From assembly GCF_029639405.1 (NCBI RefSeq), contig NZ_CP121274.1:62001-126000 (forward strand): a DNA stretch of 64,000 bases, read 5' to 3'. A model generated the notes under the pieces. It was given only the letters and a program-made list of their open reading frames with translations, made no database searches and was not told where the DNA came from. The translations under genes were made by a program, and so were the position numbers. Source of the stretch: Microbacterium proteolyticum (lineage in GTDB: Bacteria > Actinomycetota > Actinomycetes > Actinomycetales > Microbacteriaceae). Shown in pieces: positions 36,531 to 45,853 of this stretch (positions are counted from its first letter, which is position 1; the number at the start of each line of letters is the position of its first letter).

Positions 36531-36859
36531 GACCCCTGATCGTACCGGTGCGAGGCCGGGGGCGCGGGTGCGGGCCTCGCGGCCGTTTCGCCGTGTCACG
36601 CGACGAGGGTCGACGCCCGCTGCGCCGCGGGCGCGGCAGCGGGGTCGTCTCGGCCCGCGGTTGCCCCGTTTCCGGCGCGCCGTGTCCGGCGTGCACCGGG
36701 GGGCGGGTTCAGCGGTCGATCGCCGTCGCACGCGTTCACGAGATGGTCTCCGCGGCGTAACCCGCCACCCGCGGTCCACCCTTCAGCATGGGTCAAACCG
36801 CATCCGCGGTCACCGATTCGGCTCCGCTCGTCGGCGCCCCTCCCCGGAAAGCGATCGCG
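36531..36859. other. Intergenic region without a recognised gene
   Basis: About 330 bp of very GC-rich sequence between the MarR start and the assumed glycosyltransferase start. Reading frames here are arginine-rich on both strands and look like composition artefacts. It must hold the divergent promoters, but I see no convincing -35/-10 pair or dyad. An ATG at 36788 would extend the glycosyltransferase by 24 residues into it. Confidence 0.5.
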
Positions 36860-38056
36860 ATGAACCGACCCCTGCGCGTGCTGTCCCTGTACGAGGGATT
36901 CTTCGCCGGAGGAGCCCGTATCCTTCACTCCGACGTCGTCGCAGGGCTGCATGCCGACGGCGGCCAGGAGCACCGGGTCCTCTCGCTGACGTCCGCCGCT
37001 CGTCGCGACGCATCGCTGCAGCACGCCCACGACGACACCCGGTTCCGGACGCTCCGCGCCGCGGGTGTGCGCATCGACACGTTCGACCGCGTCGCCGGCG
37101 ACCAGCCGATGACCCCGGACTCCTTCAGCCCCGCCGAGCTCGCGCACGCGGCGTCCCTCATCGCGGATGCCGACATGGTGCTGTCCCTCAAGGAGCAGCC
37201 GTTGAGCCTGATCGTCGCGCTCGAACGGGCGGGCATGCTGCCCGATCGCCCCCTCGCGGCGTGCCTGCACCGCTCGGATCCCGCGCACTCCGGCCCGGCC
37301 CTGGGCTGGCTCGTCGACGCCGGCGCGACCGGCGCCGTGTCCGCGACCATCTCGTGCGCGGAATCGACCTCGGTCGCCTACACGCGCTCCGGCGTCGCGA
37401 CGACGCACGCGTGGGTGATCGACAACGGCATCGACACGCGCCGGTTCCGGCCGGGTACGCGCGCCGAGCGCCGAAGCATCCGCGAATCCCTCGGCATCCC
37501 GGAGACGGCCGCGGTGGTGATGCTGGCTGCGCGATTCGACGCGATGAAGGATCCCGGGCTGTTCCTCGACGCCGTGGCCCGGCACGCGCGCCGTCGGCCG
37601 CGCACCCACTACGTGCTGTGCGGGTCGGGGATGACGCACCGCAACCCGGCGTTCTCCGAGCTCGTCGCCGAAGCGGGGCTGGGCGCGGACGTCGCGCTGC
37701 ACGCGCTCGGCCTGCGCGAGGACATGCCCGCGTTGTACCGGATCGCCGACGTCGTGGCGCTGACCAGCGCTTTCGGCGAGGCGTCGCCGTTGTGCCTCGC
37801 CGAGGGCGCGGCATCCGGAGCCATCCCCGTCACGACCGACGTCGGCGACGCCGCCCGCGTCGTCGCGGGATTCGGACTCGTGACCCCGCGCGACGCCGAG
37901 GCCATTGCGGCGACCTGGCAGGAGGCCCTGACCCGCCGGATCGAGCTGCGGTCGGCGGCGATCTCGGCCCGCCCGCGCCTGGACCGTCGACGCATGGTCG
38001 CGGATTACCGCGGCGCGATCGAGGAGCTCGTGCTGCCCGAGGTGCTCGCGGCCTGA
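36860..38056 (+). CDS. Glycosyltransferase, GT4-like (GT-B fold)
   Basis: 398 aa from ATG 36860, preceded by GGAAAG and beginning at the Rossmann strand RPLRVLSLYEGFFAGGARIL; ATG 36788 gives 422 aa. The donor-binding half has IDNGIDTRRFRPGTRAERR, VVMLAARFDAMKDPGLFLDA and the nucleotide-sugar motif EASPLCLAEGAASGAIPVTT, close to the GT4 E-x7-E. Probably cytosolic or membrane-associated, transferring a sugar from a nucleotide donor to a lipid or glycan. It lies 141 bp upstream of a type III PKS on the same strand, so it may decorate that product, though it could be independent. Confidence 0.85.
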   Translation: MNRPLRVLSLYEGFFAGGARILHSDVVAGLHADGGQEHRVLSLTSAARRDASLQHAHDDTRFRTLRAAGVRIDTFDRVAGDQPMTPDSFSPAELAHAASLIADADMVLSLKEQPLSLIVALERAGMLPDRPLAACLHRSDPAHSGPALGWLVDAGATGAVSATISCAESTSVAYTRSGVATTHAWVIDNGIDTRRFRPGTRAERRSIRESLGIPETAAVVMLAARFDAMKDPGLFLDAVARHARRRPRTHYVLCGSGMTHRNPAFSELVAEAGLGADVALHALGLREDMPALYRIADVVALTSAFGEASPLCLAEGAASGAIPVTTDVGDAARVVAGFGLVTPRDAEAIAATWQEALTRRIELRSAAISARPRLDRRRMVADYRGAIEELVLPEVLAA

Positions 38057-38197: not shown

Positions 38198-39292
38198 ATG
38201 ACCGCCAGCATCCTCTCGATCGGCACGGCTCTGCCCCGCACCCGTGTCGCCCAGTCGGCGCTGCGCGACCTGTTCGCCGCACAGCCCGGATTCGATCGGC
38301 GCAGCCAGCGCCTCGTGGGCGCCGCGTTCGACGCCGCGGCCATCGACACGCGCCACACGGTGCTCCCGCAGCTGGCCGGAGGTTCGGCCGACGGACTCGC
38401 GGCGCTGTCGGACGGTGAGCTGACGATGCCGCCCACGGGTGCCCGCAACGACGAGTACCGCCGCACCGCGCCCGCGCTGTTCGCCGAGGCGGCCGGGGCG
38501 GCTCTGGCCGGTTCCGGGCTCGGGCGTGACGCGGTGACGCACGTCGTGACGGTCTCGTGCACGGGCATGTTCGCGCCCGGACCCGACTACCTGCTGGTGC
38601 GCGATCTCGACCTGTCGCCCTCGGTCGAGCGGTATCACCTGGGGTTCATCGGGTGCGCGGCGGCGATCCCGGCGCTCCGGCTCGCCGCGCGCATCGTCGC
38701 CGCCGATCCCGCAGCCGTCGTCCTCGTCGCCGCGGCCGAGCTGTGCTCCCTGCACTGGCAGACCTCGTCGCATCCCGATCAGATCGTCGCGGCGTCGGTG
38801 TTCGCCGACGGAGCCGCGGCCGCGATCGTGACGGCCGCGGATGCCGCCCGGCCCGGCCTCGACCTCGAGGGATTCGCGACGTACGTCACCGACGAGGGGG
38901 AGAAGGACATGGCGTGGACCGTCGGCGACTCGGGGTTCCAGATGACCCTCACTCCGGAGGTGCCACGCATCATCGGTCGCGAGATCGCCGCGATCGCCGC
39001 GGACGTGCTCGGCGACCTGAGCGAGGTCGACGCGTGGGCCGTGCACCCTGGCGGTCGGAGCATCCTCGACCGGGTCGAGTCGGCTCTGTCCCTGGATGCC
39101 GAGGCGCTCGCGTCCTCGCGCGAGGTGCTGCGGGCGCACGGCAACATGTCGAGCGCGACGCTGCTGTTCATCCTGCGGGATCTTCTCGCGGACACGGCCC
39201 GCGCGGACGGCGACAGGGTGGCCGCGCTGGCGTTCGGTCCGGGACTCACGGTGGAGGCGGCGCGCCTGGTGCTGCGCCGCCCTGCGGCGTGA
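38198..39292 (+). CDS. Type III polyketide synthase (chalcone/alkylresorcinol synthase-like)
   Basis: 364 aa. Iteratively condenses an acyl-CoA starter with malonyl-type extenders to an alkylresorcinol or pyrone. The triad is intact: Cys153 in GFIGCAAAIPAL, His283 in WAVHPGGRSILD and Asn316 in RAHGNMSSATLL. VTVSCTGMFAPGPDYLLV is also characteristic. The starter is unknown, but proteins of this type in srs-like operons take long fatty acyl chains. Followed by a methyltransferase, an FAD monooxygenase and a convergent UbiA gene, it heads a small biosynthetic cluster. Confidence 0.95.
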   Translation: MTASILSIGTALPRTRVAQSALRDLFAAQPGFDRRSQRLVGAAFDAAAIDTRHTVLPQLAGGSADGLAALSDGELTMPPTGARNDEYRRTAPALFAEAAGAALAGSGLGRDAVTHVVTVSCTGMFAPGPDYLLVRDLDLSPSVERYHLGFIGCAAAIPALRLAARIVAADPAAVVLVAAAELCSLHWQTSSHPDQIVAASVFADGAAAAIVTAADAARPGLDLEGFATYVTDEGEKDMAWTVGDSGFQMTLTPEVPRIIGREIAAIAADVLGDLSEVDAWAVHPGGRSILDRVESALSLDAEALASSREVLRAHGNMSSATLLFILRDLLADTARADGDRVAALAFGPGLTVEAARLVLRRPAA

Positions 39293-39341
39293 GGCGGGAG
39301 CCCCGCGGATGCACCAGACACGCCGTGGGAGAGGGACGCCG

Positions 39342-40064
39342 GTGAGCGCCGGAGGCTGGGCACGACTCGACGCACGAGACACCGCCCTCCTCGAGCTCAT
39401 GGACGACCCCGACTGCGATCCGCGCCGTCTCGCCGCGACGTATCGTCGGTTCGATCTGGTCAACCGTGCCGTGTCCGGCTGGGGCGGGGTGTACCGCGCG
39501 CACGTGCGCCCCCGGCTTCGCGCCCTCGGCCGGCGGGGTCGCGTCCTCGACCTCGGGTGCGGCGGCGGTGACGTCGTGGTGCGTCTCGCCGGGCTCGCCG
39601 CGCGCGACGGACTCGAGGTCGAGTGGGTCGGCGCGGATCCCGATCCGCGTGCACTCCGATCCGCTCGGGAGCGCGAACGCCCGGGTGTCCGGTTCGTCTC
39701 GCGCGGTTCGTCGGAACTGCTCGCCGACGGGGAGAGGTTCGACATCGTGCTGTCCAATCACGTGCTCCATCATCTCGACGCCGCGCAGCTGCGCGGGTTC
39801 GTGGACGACTCGCGGGCGCTCGCCCGGTCCGCCGTGCTGCACGCCGACATCGCTCGAGGACGACTGGCGTACGCGCTCTACGCGATCGGGGTGACGCCGC
39901 TCGCACCCGGAACGTTCCTCCGCACCGACGGACTGCGCTCCATCCGCCGCAGCTACCGGGCCGAGGAACTCGCCCGCACGCTCGGAGAACCCTGGCGTGT
40001 CCAGACTCCGGCACCGTTCCGCGTGCTCGCCGTCGCCGACGGGATGGCGGGGGCTCATGGCTGA
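39342..40064 (+). CDS. Class I SAM-dependent methyltransferase
   Basis: 240 aa from GTG 39342, which has a GAGGGA ribosome site; an ATG at 39309 adds 11 residues. Motif I is VLDLGCGGGDVVVR (residues 68-81), motif II WVGADPDPRAL, and post-II FDIVLSNHVLHHLD. The N-terminal LAATYRRFDLVNRAVSGWGG helix region matches polyketide/quinone methyltransferases. It overlaps the start of the FAD monooxygenase by 8 bases and follows the PKS by 49 bp. Likely methylates a phenolic oxygen or ring carbon of the PKS product, as SrsB does in Streptomyces griseus (inference). Confidence 0.9.
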   Translation: MSAGGWARLDARDTALLELMDDPDCDPRRLAATYRRFDLVNRAVSGWGGVYRAHVRPRLRALGRRGRVLDLGCGGGDVVVRLAGLAARDGLEVEWVGADPDPRALRSARERERPGVRFVSRGSSELLADGERFDIVLSNHVLHHLDAAQLRGFVDDSRALARSAVLHADIARGRLAYALYAIGVTPLAPGTFLRTDGLRSIRRSYRAEELARTLGEPWRVQTPAPFRVLAVADGMAGAHG

Positions 40065-41178
40065 CGTCCTCGTGGTGGGGGCGGGTCCGGTCGGGCTGGC
40101 GCTCGCCGCCGACCTCCGCGTGCGCGGCGTCGACGTCGCCATCGTGGAGCGACGAACGGGGTTGGATGCCGGGACGCGGGCGATCGGCATCCACTCCCCC
40201 TCCCTCGCGCACCTCGAGGCCTCCGGCGCGACCGACGCGCTTCTGGCCCGGGCCGTGCGCATCGGCCGCGGCGAGGCCCGCGCGGACGGCCGCACGCTCG
40301 CGACGATCCGATTCGATCGGCTGCGGGCGCGGCATCCGTTCGTCGCCGCGCTTCCCCAGTCGGACACCGTCGACGTGCTCACGGAGCTTGCGCCGGCGGT
40401 CTCGCGGGGCGTGCGCGTGACCGCGGTCCGCGAGGACGGCGCGGGAGTACGCGTGCAGGCGGTCGGTCCGACGGGCGAGGTGGATCTTCGCGCCGGGATC
40501 GTGGTGGTCGCATCGGGGTGGGCCGGGCGCGAGCTCGTGTATCGCCCGGGCGCCGTGCACACGCACCACTACTCCGACCGGTACGCGATGGTCGATGTCG
40601 CCGCCCCGGGCGATGCGACCGCGCTCGTGCACCTCGAGCGCGGCGGCGTGGTCGAGTCGTTCCCGTTGCCCGGAGGCAGACGGCGTCTCGTGGCGTGGGC
40701 GGGGAAGGCGGATGTCCCGGATGCCGCGGAGTTCCTCCGTGCGGCGCTGGCCGATCGTGTGGGGCTCGATGTGGACACGTCGACGGCGTCGACGTTCCGC
40801 GTGCGGCGCGCCGTGGCTCCCGCGCTGCGGAGGGGGCGGGTGATCGTCGTCGGCGACGCGGCGCACGAGGTCAGCCCGATCGGCGGTCAGGGCATGAACC
40901 TCGGCCTGCTGGATGCCCTCACCCTTTCTCCCCTGCTGGCGGAGTGGGTGCGCGGGACCGAACCACGACGGCTGGCCGCGTGGGAACAGGGACGTCTGGC
41001 GTCTGTCCGGCACGCCGCCCGTCTGGCGTTCCTGAACACGATGCTGGGGCGAGGCGCCTCGGCGCCCGGGCACGCGACCCGATCGGTGGCGCTGCGCACC
41101 GTGCTCCGCGGCCCGGGGGCGGCGGCGTTCACGCGCGCCTATGCGATGGACTTCGACGCCGCCGCGCGAGGCGGCTGA
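40057..41178 (+). CDS. FAD-dependent aromatic monooxygenase
   Basis: 373 aa. N-terminal FAD Rossmann motif ADVLVVGAGPVGLALAADL, and the second FAD motif VIVVGDAAHEVSPIGGQGMN with GLLDA. This is the aromatic-hydroxylase (PHBH/UbiH) pattern. The protein is shorter than typical PHBH enzymes and ends in a basic helix. The ATG overlaps the methyltransferase by 8 bases, so the pair is translationally coupled. It is likely to hydroxylate the resorcinol ring to a hydroquinone or quinone, the role of SrsC in srsABC (inference). Confidence 0.9.
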   Translation: MADVLVVGAGPVGLALAADLRVRGVDVAIVERRTGLDAGTRAIGIHSPSLAHLEASGATDALLARAVRIGRGEARADGRTLATIRFDRLRARHPFVAALPQSDTVDVLTELAPAVSRGVRVTAVREDGAGVRVQAVGPTGEVDLRAGIVVVASGWAGRELVYRPGAVHTHHYSDRYAMVDVAAPGDATALVHLERGGVVESFPLPGGRRRLVAWAGKADVPDAAEFLRAALADRVGLDVDTSTASTFRVRRAVAPALRRGRVIVVGDAAHEVSPIGGQGMNLGLLDALTLSPLLAEWVRGTEPRRLAAWEQGRLASVRHAARLAFLNTMLGRGASAPGHATRSVALRTVLRGPGAAAFTRAYAMDFDAAARGG

Positions 41179-41254
41179 GCGCAGGGGCCTAGGGGCGTCC
41201 CGGGTCTCGGCGGGCCGAGCCGAGGCGGAGGGTCACGATCGGCAGGCCGTGCAC

Positions 41255-42082
41255 TCACGTGATGACGAGCTGTGCCGCCAGCAGCAGCGCCGCGAGCATG
41301 GTCAGTCGGAACACCGCGCGCCCGGGCGGCCGTGCCACGGCGAGGGCGATCGTCGCGACCGCGACGAGCACGACCGCGCCGAAGAACACACCTCCGACGA
41401 CACCTCCGCCCGACCCTGCGAAGACGGCGACGGCGCCCAGCACGATCCCCGCCGCAGCGGCGACGACGCTGACGCGGGCGCCGAGCCGGTGCGGCAATCC
41501 GCGCACCCCGGTCGCACGGTCGTCGTCGAGATCGCGGACGACGTTCGTCAGGTGCACTGCGGCGCCCAGTGCCGCCCCCGCGAGCGAGGCCCACGGCGCG
41601 GCGAGCGCGGGAGCCGGCAGCGCGAGGGTCGGGAACGAGGGGAACAGACCGAAGCTGACCAGGAACGGCACGATCGACAGCGGCGTGGACTTCAGCCCCG
41701 CGTTGTAGGCCCAGGCCGAGGCGAGCGCGAGCGCGTGGGCGGCGACGAGTCCCGGTCCGAGCGGCGCCGAAAGCGCGAGAGCCAGGGCGAGGGATGCCAC
41801 CGCCACCCCGAGCGCCCGTTCCGGGGTGAGCGCTCCGCTGGCGACCGGCTTGTCGGTGCGTCCAACGGCGACGTCGCGGCCGGCGTCGATCGCGTCGTTC
41901 GACAGCCCGACGGAGACCTGACCTGCGAACACGGCGACGACGAGCAGCAGCAGACGCCACGGCTCGAGACCGGCGGCGACGCCGAGCGCCAGCGACAGGG
42001 TCGTGACGACGAGCGTCGGTCCGGGATGCGTCGCACCCCAGAGCGCCCGCACGAGCGGTGTCTTCGCGGGGGCATCGGGCAC
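41255..42082 (-). CDS. UbiA-family prenyltransferase
   Basis: 275 aa from GTG 42082; about eight membrane segments. First Asp-rich motif NDAIDAGRDVAVGRTDKP (Asn62, Asp63, Asp66, Asp70) and second motif NVVRDLDDDRATGVRGLP bind Mg-prenyl diphosphate. UbiA enzymes attach isoprenoid chains to aromatic acceptors. It converges on the monooxygenase with 76 bp between stops, so it is separately transcribed but adjacent to the PKS-methyltransferase-monooxygenase set. An acceptor made by that set is the favoured inference; a menaquinone- or haem-O-type role is less likely given the context. Confidence 0.9.
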   Translation of the reverse strand: MPDAPAKTPLVRALWGATHPGPTLVVTTLSLALGVAAGLEPWRLLLLVVAVFAGQVSVGLSNDAIDAGRDVAVGRTDKPVASGALTPERALGVAVASLALALALSAPLGPGLVAAHALALASAWAYNAGLKSTPLSIVPFLVSFGLFPSFPTLALPAPALAAPWASLAGAALGAAVHLTNVVRDLDDDRATGVRGLPHRLGARVSVVAAAAGIVLGAVAVFAGSGGGVVGGVFFGAVVLVAVATIALAVARPPGRAVFRLTMLAALLLAAQLVIT

Positions 42083-42237: not shown

Positions 42238-43752
42238 TCACGGACCCGCCGTCTCGTCATCATCGACCCGCTTCTCCCAGGGGAGTGGGTTGGGTGCGAA
42301 TCGAACACTGGCGGGTGGGACGGCGGAGGGATACGGATCGGGGTGGTCGGTGTAGACGCGGCCGGTGGGTGAGGTCCATTCGAGGAGTCCGTCGGGGAGC
42401 TGCGTCACGCTCCAGCGCGTGAACTGCTTCTGCGTGTGGTGCCGTTGGCACAGGCAGGCGAGATTGCGGACGTCGGTGGTCCCGCCGTGCGCCCAGTCGG
42501 TGGTGTGGTCGATCTCGCAACGGATCGCGGGAGCAGTGCACCCGGGCCATCGGCAGCGGCGGTCACGGGCACGCAGGTGCCGGTCGATCGCGGTGGTGCG
42601 GTGGTAGGTGTCGGTGTGCAGGACGGCGCCGGTGACGGGGTGGGTGATCACCCGATCCCAGGGGACGCGGGTGGCCTCGGCGAGGCGCCGTGCGGTTTCC
42701 GCATCGATGGGACCGCGGCCGACGAGCTCGGCCGGAGCCGCGTTCTCCCCTCCCGGCGCGAGCATGGTCATGGCCGGCACGACGACCTGGACCCTCGCGC
42801 GGATCTTGCCGAGGGTGCCGGGTCCGTCGTCGGGTCGGGTGGGGTCGAGAGTCGGGTCGCCGGTGAGGAGCATGTCGGCGAACACGTCCGCCCGCACCTG
42901 GTCCATCGTGCGCGTATCCGGCTTCGGGAGGACGGGACCGGCGACCGGGTCGCCGTCGACGGCACCGTCACCGCTCGCCCGGCCCGTCGGCGACGGAGTC
43001 CCCCCTCGGGTGACCCCGCCCGTCGAGGCCATGTCGCCGGAGGCGGCATCGCCGAGTGCGTCGCCCGCCTTCGCGTCCCGCGCCGCGTCCACGATGACCC
43101 GGGCCTGCTGCGTCACCCGGTCGTGGATCGCTTCGGCGAGCACGGTCGGGAGGGTCGCGATCAGATCCGACATGCCCTCCGCCGCCGGGACCACGCGCAC
43201 GCACCGCAACTCGCGCGCGGCCCGGTGGCGCTCGGTGACCGTCCGCGGATGCAACCTCTGCGCGGCCACGGCGAGCCGGCTCTTCAACCGGCCCGGACTG
43301 GACGCCTCCCCCGCGAGGGACACGGCCTCGGCATCGAAGACCGCCCTCCGTTCCACCGGCAGCCCCGCCCCGGCGTCCGCGATCACCCGCACATACCGCC
43401 GCGATATCGCCCCGCTCTCCCACGCCGCGACGGTTCGCGGGAACGACTCCACCAGCGTCATCGCGTCGTCGATGTCGCGCTGCACCGTCCGATCCGACCC
43501 CCGGCACGCGGCCGCCACCTCGGACGCCACCTCCCGCAACGCCATCTCCGCGGCTCGCACCGACGCCCGTGTCGTCGCCGCGGCATCCAGCGCGAGTCGT
43601 CCGACCGCGGCCAACGCCCGTACGCGCGCGACCTCCGCCGACGCGACCGCAGCCTCGGCGACGACGACATCCGCGACCAGACCCGCCAACACCCCCACGT
43701 CGATCGCCACGACCCTCGACCCGGACGGCTCGGGCGAAACATTCGAAGACAT
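42238..43752 (-). CDS. DUF222 protein with C-terminal HNH nuclease domain (13E12 type)
   Basis: 504 aa from ATG 43752. The N-terminal ~300 residues are the helical DUF222 domain (RAAEMALREVASEVAAACRG, ISRRYVRVIADAGAG), interrupted by a Gly/Pro/Asp-rich linker. The HNH motif lies near the C-terminus: CRWPGCTAPAIRCEIDHTTD followed by LACLCQRHHTQK, with the zinc Cys pairs and HH intact. These proteins occur in many copies in actinobacterial genomes and their role is unresolved; nicking or mobile-element activity is supposed. Start is uncertain because the frame stays open upstream. Confidence 0.9.
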   Translation of the reverse strand: MSSNVSPEPSGSRVVAIDVGVLAGLVADVVVAEAAVASAEVARVRALAAVGRLALDAAATTRASVRAAEMALREVASEVAAACRGSDRTVQRDIDDAMTLVESFPRTVAAWESGAISRRYVRVIADAGAGLPVERRAVFDAEAVSLAGEASSPGRLKSRLAVAAQRLHPRTVTERHRAARELRCVRVVPAAEGMSDLIATLPTVLAEAIHDRVTQQARVIVDAARDAKAGDALGDAASGDMASTGGVTRGGTPSPTGRASGDGAVDGDPVAGPVLPKPDTRTMDQVRADVFADMLLTGDPTLDPTRPDDGPGTLGKIRARVQVVVPAMTMLAPGGENAAPAELVGRGPIDAETARRLAEATRVPWDRVITHPVTGAVLHTDTYHRTTAIDRHLRARDRRCRWPGCTAPAIRCEIDHTTDWAHGGTTDVRNLACLCQRHHTQKQFTRWSVTQLPDGLLEWTSPTGRVYTDHPDPYPSAVPPASVRFAPNPLPWEKRVDDDETAGP

Positions 43753-43932
43753 ATCCGAACGCTGAACGAAACCCACGACGTTTCCCAGATCAGGTGGCAA
43801 ATCTGTGAACAACTTCCGACCTGCGAGACCTGTGCAGAAGGGGCGCACGGCCCGCGACATCGCAGCGACGACGCGGCGCCCACCGCGCGCCCCGACGACG
43901 CGACGACCGCCACGCAACACGCACCTGAACTC

Positions 43933-44585: not shown

Positions 44586-45656
44586 GTGTCCGCGACCCTC
44601 TCCCCCCACGATCCGCCGGCCGCCATCGACGCCGATGACGTGCCCGCCCTTCCCTTCACTCCGCGCGGCCCGGTGAGCGCCGCCGTCCTGCACCACCTCG
44701 GCGTGGGCGCGGCGACGAACCACACGGTCCTCGCCGACGCGGCCGCCGCCGCGTCGCCCGACGTCGAGACCGACGACGACCTTCAGCTCGCCCTCTTCGC
44801 GCTGTACGCCTCGGCCTACGGGTCGGTCTCGGCGTTCGACCCCGAGCTCGAGTGGGAGCCGTCGCTCATCGCCACCCGCGGCGTCATCGAGCGGGCGTTC
44901 GAGGCCGCGCTGCGAGCGCGTATCCTCCCGCCCGAACTCCCGGCGGCGACCGCGGATGCCGTGGCCCGCGCGCTCTTCACCCTGACCGCCGCCGACGGCG
45001 GTCCGAGCCTCTCGCGCCACCTCGCGAAGAAGGCGACCCTCGACCAGGCGCACGAGTTCCTCGTGCACCGCTCGGTCTATACGCTGCGGGAGGCCGATCC
45101 GCACTCCTGGGCGATCCCGCGCCTGGCCGGACGCCCGAAAGCCGCGCTCGTGGAGATCCAGTCCGACGAGTACGGCGGCGGCAACCCCGAGCGCGTCCAC
45201 GCCGAGCTCTTCGCCCGTGCCGTGCGCGCGGCCGGGCTCTCCGACGCCTATGGCGCCTACGTCGACGACGTGCCCGCCGTGACCCTGGCATCTCACAATG
45301 CGATGTCGATGTTCGGCCTCAACCGGCGCCTCCTCGGCGCGATCGTCGGACACCTCGCGGCGTTCGAGATGACGTCCTCGATCCCGAACCGCCTGTACGC
45401 CGAGGGATTGCGTCGACTGGGCTTCGATGACGACGTGTGCGGCTACTTCGACGAGCACGTCGAAGCCGACGCGGTGCACGAGCAGATCGCGGCCCGCGAC
45501 CTCGCCGGCACCCTCGCCGAGGACCGCCCCGATCTGCTCCCCGACATCCTGTTCGGCGCCGCCGTCTGCCTGAGCGTCGATGGTCGCGTGGGCGAGCACC
45601 TGCTCGATGCCTGGGGGCGTGGCGCGTCCTCACTGCGCCCCGAGGACGCCCGGTGA
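44586..45656 (+). CDS. Haem-oxygenase-fold iron-containing redox enzyme
   Basis: 356 aa, all-helical. Candidate metal ligands stand in conserved-looking clusters: Glu190 (ALVEIQSDEYGGG), His205 (PERVHAELF) and the C-terminal YFDEHVEADAVHEQ (His291, Asp295, His298). This matches the haem-oxygenase-like di-iron family, whose characterised members do oxygen-dependent oxidations; the substrate here is unknown. The GTG start lies within the 3' arm of a small dyad (CCGGAGC at 44559-44565, GCTCCGG at 44580-44586). Its stop overlaps the start of a CDGSH gene (GTGA), implying joint synthesis. It lies 88 bp after hsp20. Confidence 0.85.
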   Translation: MSATLSPHDPPAAIDADDVPALPFTPRGPVSAAVLHHLGVGAATNHTVLADAAAAASPDVETDDDLQLALFALYASAYGSVSAFDPELEWEPSLIATRGVIERAFEAALRARILPPELPAATADAVARALFTLTAADGGPSLSRHLAKKATLDQAHEFLVHRSVYTLREADPHSWAIPRLAGRPKAALVEIQSDEYGGGNPERVHAELFARAVRAAGLSDAYGAYVDDVPAVTLASHNAMSMFGLNRRLLGAIVGHLAAFEMTSSIPNRLYAEGLRRLGFDDDVCGYFDEHVEADAVHEQIAARDLAGTLAEDRPDLLPDILFGAAVCLSVDGRVGEHLLDAWGRGASSLRPEDAR

Positions 45657-45853
45657 CCGCCGAGCGTCCGCGCATCACGGCCTATCCCGACGGTCCTCTG
45701 CTCGTGCGCGGAGACGTGGACCTGCGCGACGCCGACGGCGCCCCGATCGATAAGCGCCGGCGCACGGTGGCGCTGTGCCGGTGCGGCCTGTCCACGATCA
45801 AGCCGTTCTGCGACGGGACGCACAAGCCCGCCGGGTTCCGCACCGACGACTGA
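45653..45853 (+). CDS. CDGSH-type iron-sulfur protein
   Basis: 66 aa from GTG 45653. The single CDGSH motif CRCGLSTIKPFCDGTH carries three Cys and one His to bind a 2Fe-2S cluster; Thr replaces Ser before the His, as in many bacterial versions. No membrane anchor. The start overlaps the stop of the di-iron-type enzyme by 4 bases, so the Fe-S protein is the likely electron donor or cluster-transfer partner of that enzyme (inference). Confidence 0.9.
   Translation: MTAERPRITAYPDGPLLVRGDVDLRDADGAPIDKRRRTVALCRCGLSTIKPFCDGTHKPAGFRTDD

Follow-up and report, generated by a model that had tools for sequence, protein, structure and literature searches.

Two gene clusters provide the main points of reference for the locus studied here, namely srsABC of Streptomyces griseus, reportedly described by Funabashi in 2008, and agqABCD, said to have been described by Awakawa in 2011. 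The locus itself occupies positions 38198..42082 of the window, the 64,000-nucleotide stretch of Microbacterium proteolyticum DNA that was analysed (NZ_CP121274.1; assembly GCF_029639405.1), part of a 3.97 Mb genome, and comprises genes for a type III polyketide synthase (PKS), a methyltransferase, a flavoprotein and a UbiA-family prenyltransferase. The agq cluster of Actinoplanes missouriensis (2011) is the characterised precedent for a type III PKS combined with a UbiA protein, as cited in the portions available of PMC10896814, PMC3227686 and PMC7692728; its alkylresorcinols are described there as prenylated and hydroxylated (PMC10896814, PMC3227686), with AgqD O-prenylating an alkyl-methoxyhydroquinone (PMC3227686). 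SrsB, according to an excerpt of PMC6669644, is an isoprenylcysteine-carboxyl-type methyltransferase (ICMT). Type III PKSs of four cluster types are reported in 79% of the Microbacterium genomes analysed (70 by the abstract) in a survey whose main text does not name UbiA (PMC7438953, seen in part), and a literature search combining T3PKS, Microbacterium and UbiA found no paper. Comparative analysis suggests that the M. proteolyticum cluster probably encodes a pathway for a methylated, oxidised and prenylated phenolic lipid that works like agq.

The components of the cluster named in a first-pass annotation of this DNA, namely a PKS with Cys153, His283 and Asn316, a methyltransferase, a flavin adenine dinucleotide (FAD)-dependent flavoprotein and a convergent UbiA gene with Asp-rich motifs, were all recovered in the sequence:

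38198..39292, + strand: type III PKS of 364 residues, type A as defined below; open reading frame with Pfam matches Chal_sti_synt_N and Chal_sti_synt_C
38654-38656, 39044-39046 and 39143-39145, + strand: catalytic Cys153, His283 and Asn316 of the PKS, respectively, from sequence positions
39309..40064 (alternative start 39342), + strand: class-I S-adenosylmethionine (SAM) methyltransferase; Pfam class-I methyltransferase domains, NF004851/PRK06202 family above cut-off
40057..41178, + strand: flavoprotein of the p-hydroxybenzoate hydroxylase (PHBH) fold; FAD_binding_3, 1.7e-37
40501..40536, + strand: site of the DG fingerprint of the flavoprotein, residues 149-160, with the Asp replaced, from alignment
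41255..42082, - strand: UbiA-family prenyltransferase of 275 residues, GTG start, convergent; PF01040, 6e-25
41873..41899, - strand: first Asp-rich motif of UbiA, residues 62-70; N62, D63, D66, R69 and D70 invariant in 19 aligned members
41519..41545, - strand: second Asp-rich motif of UbiA, residues 180-188; N180, D184 and D188 invariant in 19 aligned members

The genes are tightly packed: 16 nt separate the PKS stop codon from the methyltransferase start at 39309, the methyltransferase and flavoprotein genes overlap by 8 nt, and the 3' ends of the flavoprotein and UbiA genes lie 76 nt apart. The recurrence of the same block on the same strands in other genomes argues that this arrangement is not due to chance. 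A scan of the locus for promoters and terminators found none, such scans being uninformative at this G+C content.

The core of the cluster is formed by the PKS and the methyltransferase. The Cys-His-Asn triad identifies the former as a type III PKS, the Cys and His being retained in all 123 aligned PKSs and the Asn in 121, with the other two gapped at that position (the alignment includes the window and some loci twice). In a survey of 299 genomes of the family, we separated PKS matches at 200 bits into a window-type set above this score ("type A") and genomes with weaker matches only ("type B"); the division is one made in the present analysis, and the srs-type nature of type B is confirmed for the loci inspected only. 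Type A is found in 117 genomes, and a further 102 have type-B matches alone, at about 33% identity. The methyltransferase occurs in 118 genomes, comprising all 117 with type A and one weak extra (G099), and lies no more than 585 nt from the PKS match in every type-A genome. A class-wide search for the methyltransferase family gave matches in 24 of 345 genomes, and all 15 loci returned, 6 of them from genomes outside the family, carry an adjoining type-A PKS. This invariable pairing, in the 117 genomes and the 15 class-wide loci alike, indicates that the two genes form one unit. UbiA is absent from the six wider class-wide loci (L300-L305). The type-A PKSs form a single clade of 23 rows (Shimodaira-Hasegawa-like approximate likelihood ratio test, SH-aLRT, 99), and under midpoint rooting the PKSs resembling that of the los cluster fall between types A and B. 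The position after the PKS-methyltransferase pair is variable: 59 of the 117 type-A genomes have a PHBH-type flavoprotein no more than 3 kb from the PKS. At one locus (L261) a nitroreductase-family protein, recognised by a Pfam match, takes the place of the flavoprotein, and L303 has the same replacement, as judged by similar sequence.

The window UbiA protein displays the two Asp-rich motifs and all-helical fold characteristic of the UbiA superfamily. Its structural model (predicted local distance difference test, pLDDT, 94.4) is closest to members of this superfamily, namely 7bpu and 6m31 (archaeal lipid synthase) and 4od5 and 4tq3 (UbiA homologues). To assess adjacency, the rows listed were compared, 117 of type A and 32 of type B for the PKS and 150 for UbiA; all 51 type-A genomes with UbiA are included. 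Among the type-A genomes, 38 have the UbiA gene within 20 kb of the PKS, in 13 it lies elsewhere and 66 lack it; 33 of the linked genes are convergent and 1.9 to 3.9 kb downstream, and the remaining 5 are divergent and just upstream. The flavoprotein, defined across genomes at E 1e-45, is present in 68 genomes; in 59 of these it is no further than 3 kb from the PKS, and in the other 9 (G116, G257, G031, G263, G214, G221, G045, G105 and G171) it lies within 500 nt of UbiA. A tenth flavoprotein-UbiA pair away from the PKS is found in G295. The 13 genomes with UbiA elsewhere also include G163 (not inspected), G071, with the flavoprotein beside the PKS, and G194, where both flavoprotein and UbiA genes are at contig ends. 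That the flavoprotein stays with UbiA when away from the PKS suggests that UbiA is tied to the pathway more strongly than by adjacency alone. The survey of UbiA linkage proposed in the first-pass annotation thus returned a non-random association, with the 38 linked genomes supplemented by the 10 with a flavoprotein-UbiA pair elsewhere.

Outside the type-A genomes the association is looser. UbiA is present in 97 of the 102 type-B genomes, although among the 32 type-B rows listed just 2 have it adjoining the PKS, and in 15 of the 80 genomes that gave no PKS match. Wide conservation of UbiA without the PKS, named beforehand as a refutation, is thus partly borne out by these genomes, and 66 type-A genomes have the PKS but no such UbiA. 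At the genus level a type III PKS match occurs in 52 of 57 genera with UbiA and in 14 of the 28 that lack it (Fisher p 4e-5, with no correction for kinship), and the two are found together in 148 of the 299 family genomes. Within the genus itself, UbiA was detected in 3 of 6 genomes in one draw and in 7 of 10 in another made with a different query, and every organism-named protein among the 120 UbiA relatives listed is from Microbacterium. A tree that sampled every second named PKS-linked locus places the family's UbiA proteins in a single 35-row clade (SH-aLRT 99), inside which the linked group of the window is nested; the great distance of the outgroups leaves the root of this tree unsure. 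In a second UbiA search, the 30 best loci, taken with 1.5 kb flanks, comprise 15 with a type-B PKS, 4 with window-type genes and 11 with neither. A number of unlinked relatives (L035-L045, L048 and L052) occupy a partly conserved site with genes for an MFS pump, a DUF3516 helicase, FUSC, GH15 and quinone-oxidoreductase-like proteins.

The genome encodes three other UbiA-family proteins, namely CtaB, MenA and a prenyltransferase of the PRK13105 family, which we take to be lycopene-elongase-like. We considered whether the cluster UbiA might be one of these enzymes and rejected this identification; as the genes for all three are located elsewhere in the genome, the cluster protein is not the quinone or haem enzyme. 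Three polyprenyl-synthase genes are present in the genome, one near MenA and another near the PRK13105-type gene, and no protein of the genome passes the geranylgeranyl-reductase cut-off. The common pool is the probable source of the prenyl donor for UbiA.

The flavoprotein model (pLDDT 94.7) finds its closest folds among aromatic monooxygenases, namely the p-nitrophenol 4-monooxygenase PnpA and PHBH. In addition to the PHBH fold, it has the GxGxxG and GD fingerprints of group A aromatic hydroxylases; the Asp of the third fingerprint of this group, DG, is missing both from the window protein and from all 14 rows of its clade. Of 84 loci submitted for comparison, 5 gave no flavoprotein match, and in the 79 relatives scored the Asp is missing from 19 of 42 with a linked UbiA, 1 of 12 with UbiA elsewhere (G194) and 1 of 25 without UbiA (G253). 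A midpoint-rooted tree of 78 flavoprotein rows recovers a set of 54 (SH-aLRT 97) that contains 53 of the 54 UbiA-bearing rows; the exceptions are G253, which lacks UbiA and lies inside the set, and G071, which has UbiA and lies outside it. G194, counted under UbiA elsewhere above, was scored as linked in this tree. Loss of the Asp requires three changes on the tree, all within the UbiA-bearing set, which is too few to tie it statistically to UbiA linkage. In the excerpts available, the DG fingerprint is said to support the binding of FAD and reduced nicotinamide adenine dinucleotide phosphate (NADPH) in group A enzymes, and TvMNX4, which has no DG motif, is reported to hydroxylate ten phenolic compounds and to accept NADPH or its non-phosphorylated counterpart NADH (PMC12915361). 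MICAL-1, as described in part of another paper, has Ala in place of this Asp and consumes NADPH without substrate, at a 12-fold lower level once the Asp is restored (PMC5772675). Absence of the motif is thus compatible with hydroxylation but can weaken coupling. It is conceivable, though rather improbable, that in this clade the flavoprotein has ceased to act as a tightly coupled NADPH hydroxylase and instead performs a changed redox step on a phenol destined for prenylation, a change that the three losses inside the UbiA-bearing set would fit. It might then work as an oxidase, as a quinone-forming enzyme or uncoupled as in MICAL-1, and lead either to a prenylated alkylquinone or to a meroterpenoid whose ring pattern is not known from agq or srs.

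Under the agq-like interpretation, the type III PKS would extend a long acyl-CoA with malonyl-CoA and fold the product to an alkylresorcinol, and the class-I methyltransferase would then O- or C-methylate the phenol. The PHBH-fold flavoprotein may oxidise the aromatic ring, giving a (methoxy)hydroquinone or quinone, a step that is less sure with the DG fingerprint gone. By analogy with AgqD, the UbiA protein, a predicted membrane enzyme with both diphosphate-binding Asp motifs, would add an isoprenoid from the general pool to the oxidised phenol. The genes themselves constitute an agq-type set, namely a type III PKS linked to UbiA, a methyltransferase and a flavoprotein predicted to oxidise aromatic rings. 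Several observations nevertheless weigh against this interpretation. There is no prenyl-synthase gene within the window, and the core does not need UbiA, which is absent from 66 of the 117 type-A genomes and from 3 of the 6 genomes of its own genus in one draw. The loss of the DG fingerprint, as judged from sequence, weakens without refuting the hydroxylase label of the flavoprotein. Phytohabitans strains with orthologues of agqA-D gave none of the agq masses in culture, according to the portion available of PMC7692728. Finally, activation of losA alone in a bacterial artificial chromosome with UbiA three genes from losA yielded alkylresorcinols that the accessible part of PMC7587189 does not describe as prenylated.

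The absence of UbiA from those 66 genomes also speaks for a scheme in which the three-gene operon alone makes a methylated phenolic lipid or quinone and the neighbouring UbiA acts separately on another substrate, as do its occurrence in the 15 genomes without a type III PKS match and the partly conserved site, with the MFS pump, DUF3516 helicase and other genes, that its unlinked relatives share in 13 fetched Microbacteriaceae loci. This is very doubtful given the convergent position fixed in 33 genomes, the flavoprotein-UbiA pairs that 10 further genomes have at a distance from the PKS and the genus-level co-occurrence, uncorrected for kinship as it is. A distinctly unlikely alternative is that the product is a lipid-soluble redox quinone, in which the PKS core replaces the aromatic head and UbiA adds a long polyprenyl tail to give an electron shuttle. 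Methyltransferases, flavoproteins and UbiA proteins are indeed the enzyme kinds of quinone pathways, and a role in electron transfer is ascribed to Mycobacterium tuberculosis alkylquinones (PMC10896814, in part); however, MenA is present elsewhere in the genome, and 182 of the 299 family genomes lack a type-A PKS, implying that the product is not essential. It is also unlikely, though less strikingly so, that the PKS makes alkylpyrones in place of resorcinols and that the downstream enzymes act on the pyrone. The distance of the type-A PKSs from the srs type is consistent with such a product, and PKS genes of Microbacterium are annotated as alpha-pyrone synthase-like in one survey (PMC7438953, in the part available), but the genes adjoining the PKS, namely the PHBH-type flavoprotein within 3 kb in 59 genomes and UbiA within 20 kb in 38, are of kinds that act on aromatic rings. 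The prenylated phenolic lipid remains the interpretation that we favour.

The first-pass annotation had suggested a possible glycosylation step by the product of an upstream gene:

36788..38056, + strand: GT4-family glycosyltransferase (Glycos_transf_1), judged outside the cluster

This proposal was abandoned, as GT4 is not conserved beside the PKS, being found at none of 20 type-A PKS loci of relatives (L055-L074; no match at E 1e-10). L073 extends only 3.7 kb upstream, and the nearest strains lie outside the comparison. On the other side, directly upstream of UbiA, is a gene for a DUF222-HNH endonuclease (42238-43920), presumably 13E12-like, which has matches also in L132, L154 and L264. Further on (44586-45853) a gene for an iron-containing redox enzyme (Haem_oxygenas_2, PF14518) is followed on the same strand, perhaps with an overlap, by one for a CDGSH iron-sulfur protein (PF09360).

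Turning to other actinobacteria, 69 of 80 named-genome UbiA loci hold a type III PKS, 67 of these with an ICMT-type methyltransferase, and 11 lack a PKS. These are the best 80 of 587 loci, found with a query alignment led by a PKS-linked UbiA and including 18 loci shorter than 14 kb, so that the proportion is biased and not a general rate. Most are srs-type operons with an adjoining UbiA, from Jiangella, Nocardioides, Streptomyces, Georgenia, Terrabacter, Cellulomonas and others; L053 and L054 carry PKS, ICMT, flavoprotein and UbiA genes all in one direction. At L183, from Streptomyces griseus subsp. griseus, UbiA adjoins an srs-type operon whose PKS is not confirmed as SrsA. Five srs-type loci (L117, L136, L179, L202 and L203) have a second flavoprotein between UbiA and the PKS, with a 27-30% match to the srs-type flavoprotein, which might saturate the prenyl chain. 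Within the family, 18 of 19 type-B loci (L265-L284 minus the type-A L281) have PKS, ICMT and flavoprotein genes and the other, L274, has PKS and ICMT only; UbiA was seen in none of the 19 fetched. A third kind of locus, seen in L185 of Parafrankia soli, L122 and L124, has UbiA near a PKS that is 37-39% identical to that of the window. L124 and L185 encode a class-I methyltransferase, and L122 and L185 a protein of the acyl-CoA-dehydrogenase type. The order in L185 (UbiA, methyltransferase, acyl-CoA-dehydrogenase type, PKS) is that of genes 16 to 19 of the published los list (PMC7587189, in the part available).

Compared with these systems, the window cluster shares with srsABC the order PKS-methyltransferase-flavoprotein, and in this respect, as in the kinds of enzyme involved, its first-pass description as srsABC-like stands. 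The description fails for the individual proteins. The window PKS lies outside the srs-type set in a separate clade, at no more than 31% identity in alignment and 31-36% in local matches, the comparison being with srs-type PKSs and not with SrsA itself. Its methyltransferase is of class I (NF004851), whereas srs-type L053 carries an ICMT (PF04140), and the L053 flavoprotein, the one srs-type example tested, best matches the geranylgeranyl-reductase family, below its cut-off, as against FAD_binding_3 in the window. The label thus fits the type-B clusters carried by other family members, with their PKS-ICMT-flavoprotein loci, and not the window cluster. The los-like PKSs are a separate group, and the sequences suggest that the window PKS and methyltransferase class are nearer to the los-type than to the srs-type clusters. 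UbiA is common to the window, the los locus of Micromonospora endolithica (from the gene list in PMC7587189, available in part) and L185, L124 (G336) and L122 (G392); the similarity of the class-I methyltransferases of L124 and L185 to that of the window is confined to the SAM region (30% over 81 residues), and the oxidising gene of L122 and L185 is of the acyl-CoA-dehydrogenase type, in contrast to the PHBH-type flavoprotein. The locus of strain NJES-13, assigned in the section available of PMC8779670 to angucycline biosynthesis, brings together UbiA, PKS, ICMT and FAD-oxygenase genes; it shares the type III PKS and UbiA with the window but has an ICMT-type methyltransferase.

With agq, the window shares the combination of a type III PKS, tailoring enzymes and a UbiA-like prenyltransferase, although in Phytohabitans agqB to agqD adjoin agqA (PMC7692728, in part) and the window UbiA is on the opposite strand. 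The first-pass annotation had held a prenylated hybrid to be unexpected from srsABC; given the agq precedent and the PKS-containing UbiA loci noted above, the novelty falls away, and prenylation, though plausible, is what clusters of this known kind would lead one to expect. On the whole, a single UbiA subfamily is found with at least three type III PKS sets, namely srs with ICMT, los with an acyl-CoA-dehydrogenase-like protein, and the window set, which, with the 148 family genomes noted above, suggests that phenolic lipids may be prenylated more often than one would judge from the few products characterised. For Microbacterium, the cluster defines a set of four genes and poses a question open to testing, that of a flavoenzyme lacking the DG motif. 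While the placement of UbiA beside a type III PKS was already known, what is new here is the combination of enzyme kinds, with a different methyltransferase and a PHBH-type flavoprotein, together with the alteration of the flavoprotein itself.

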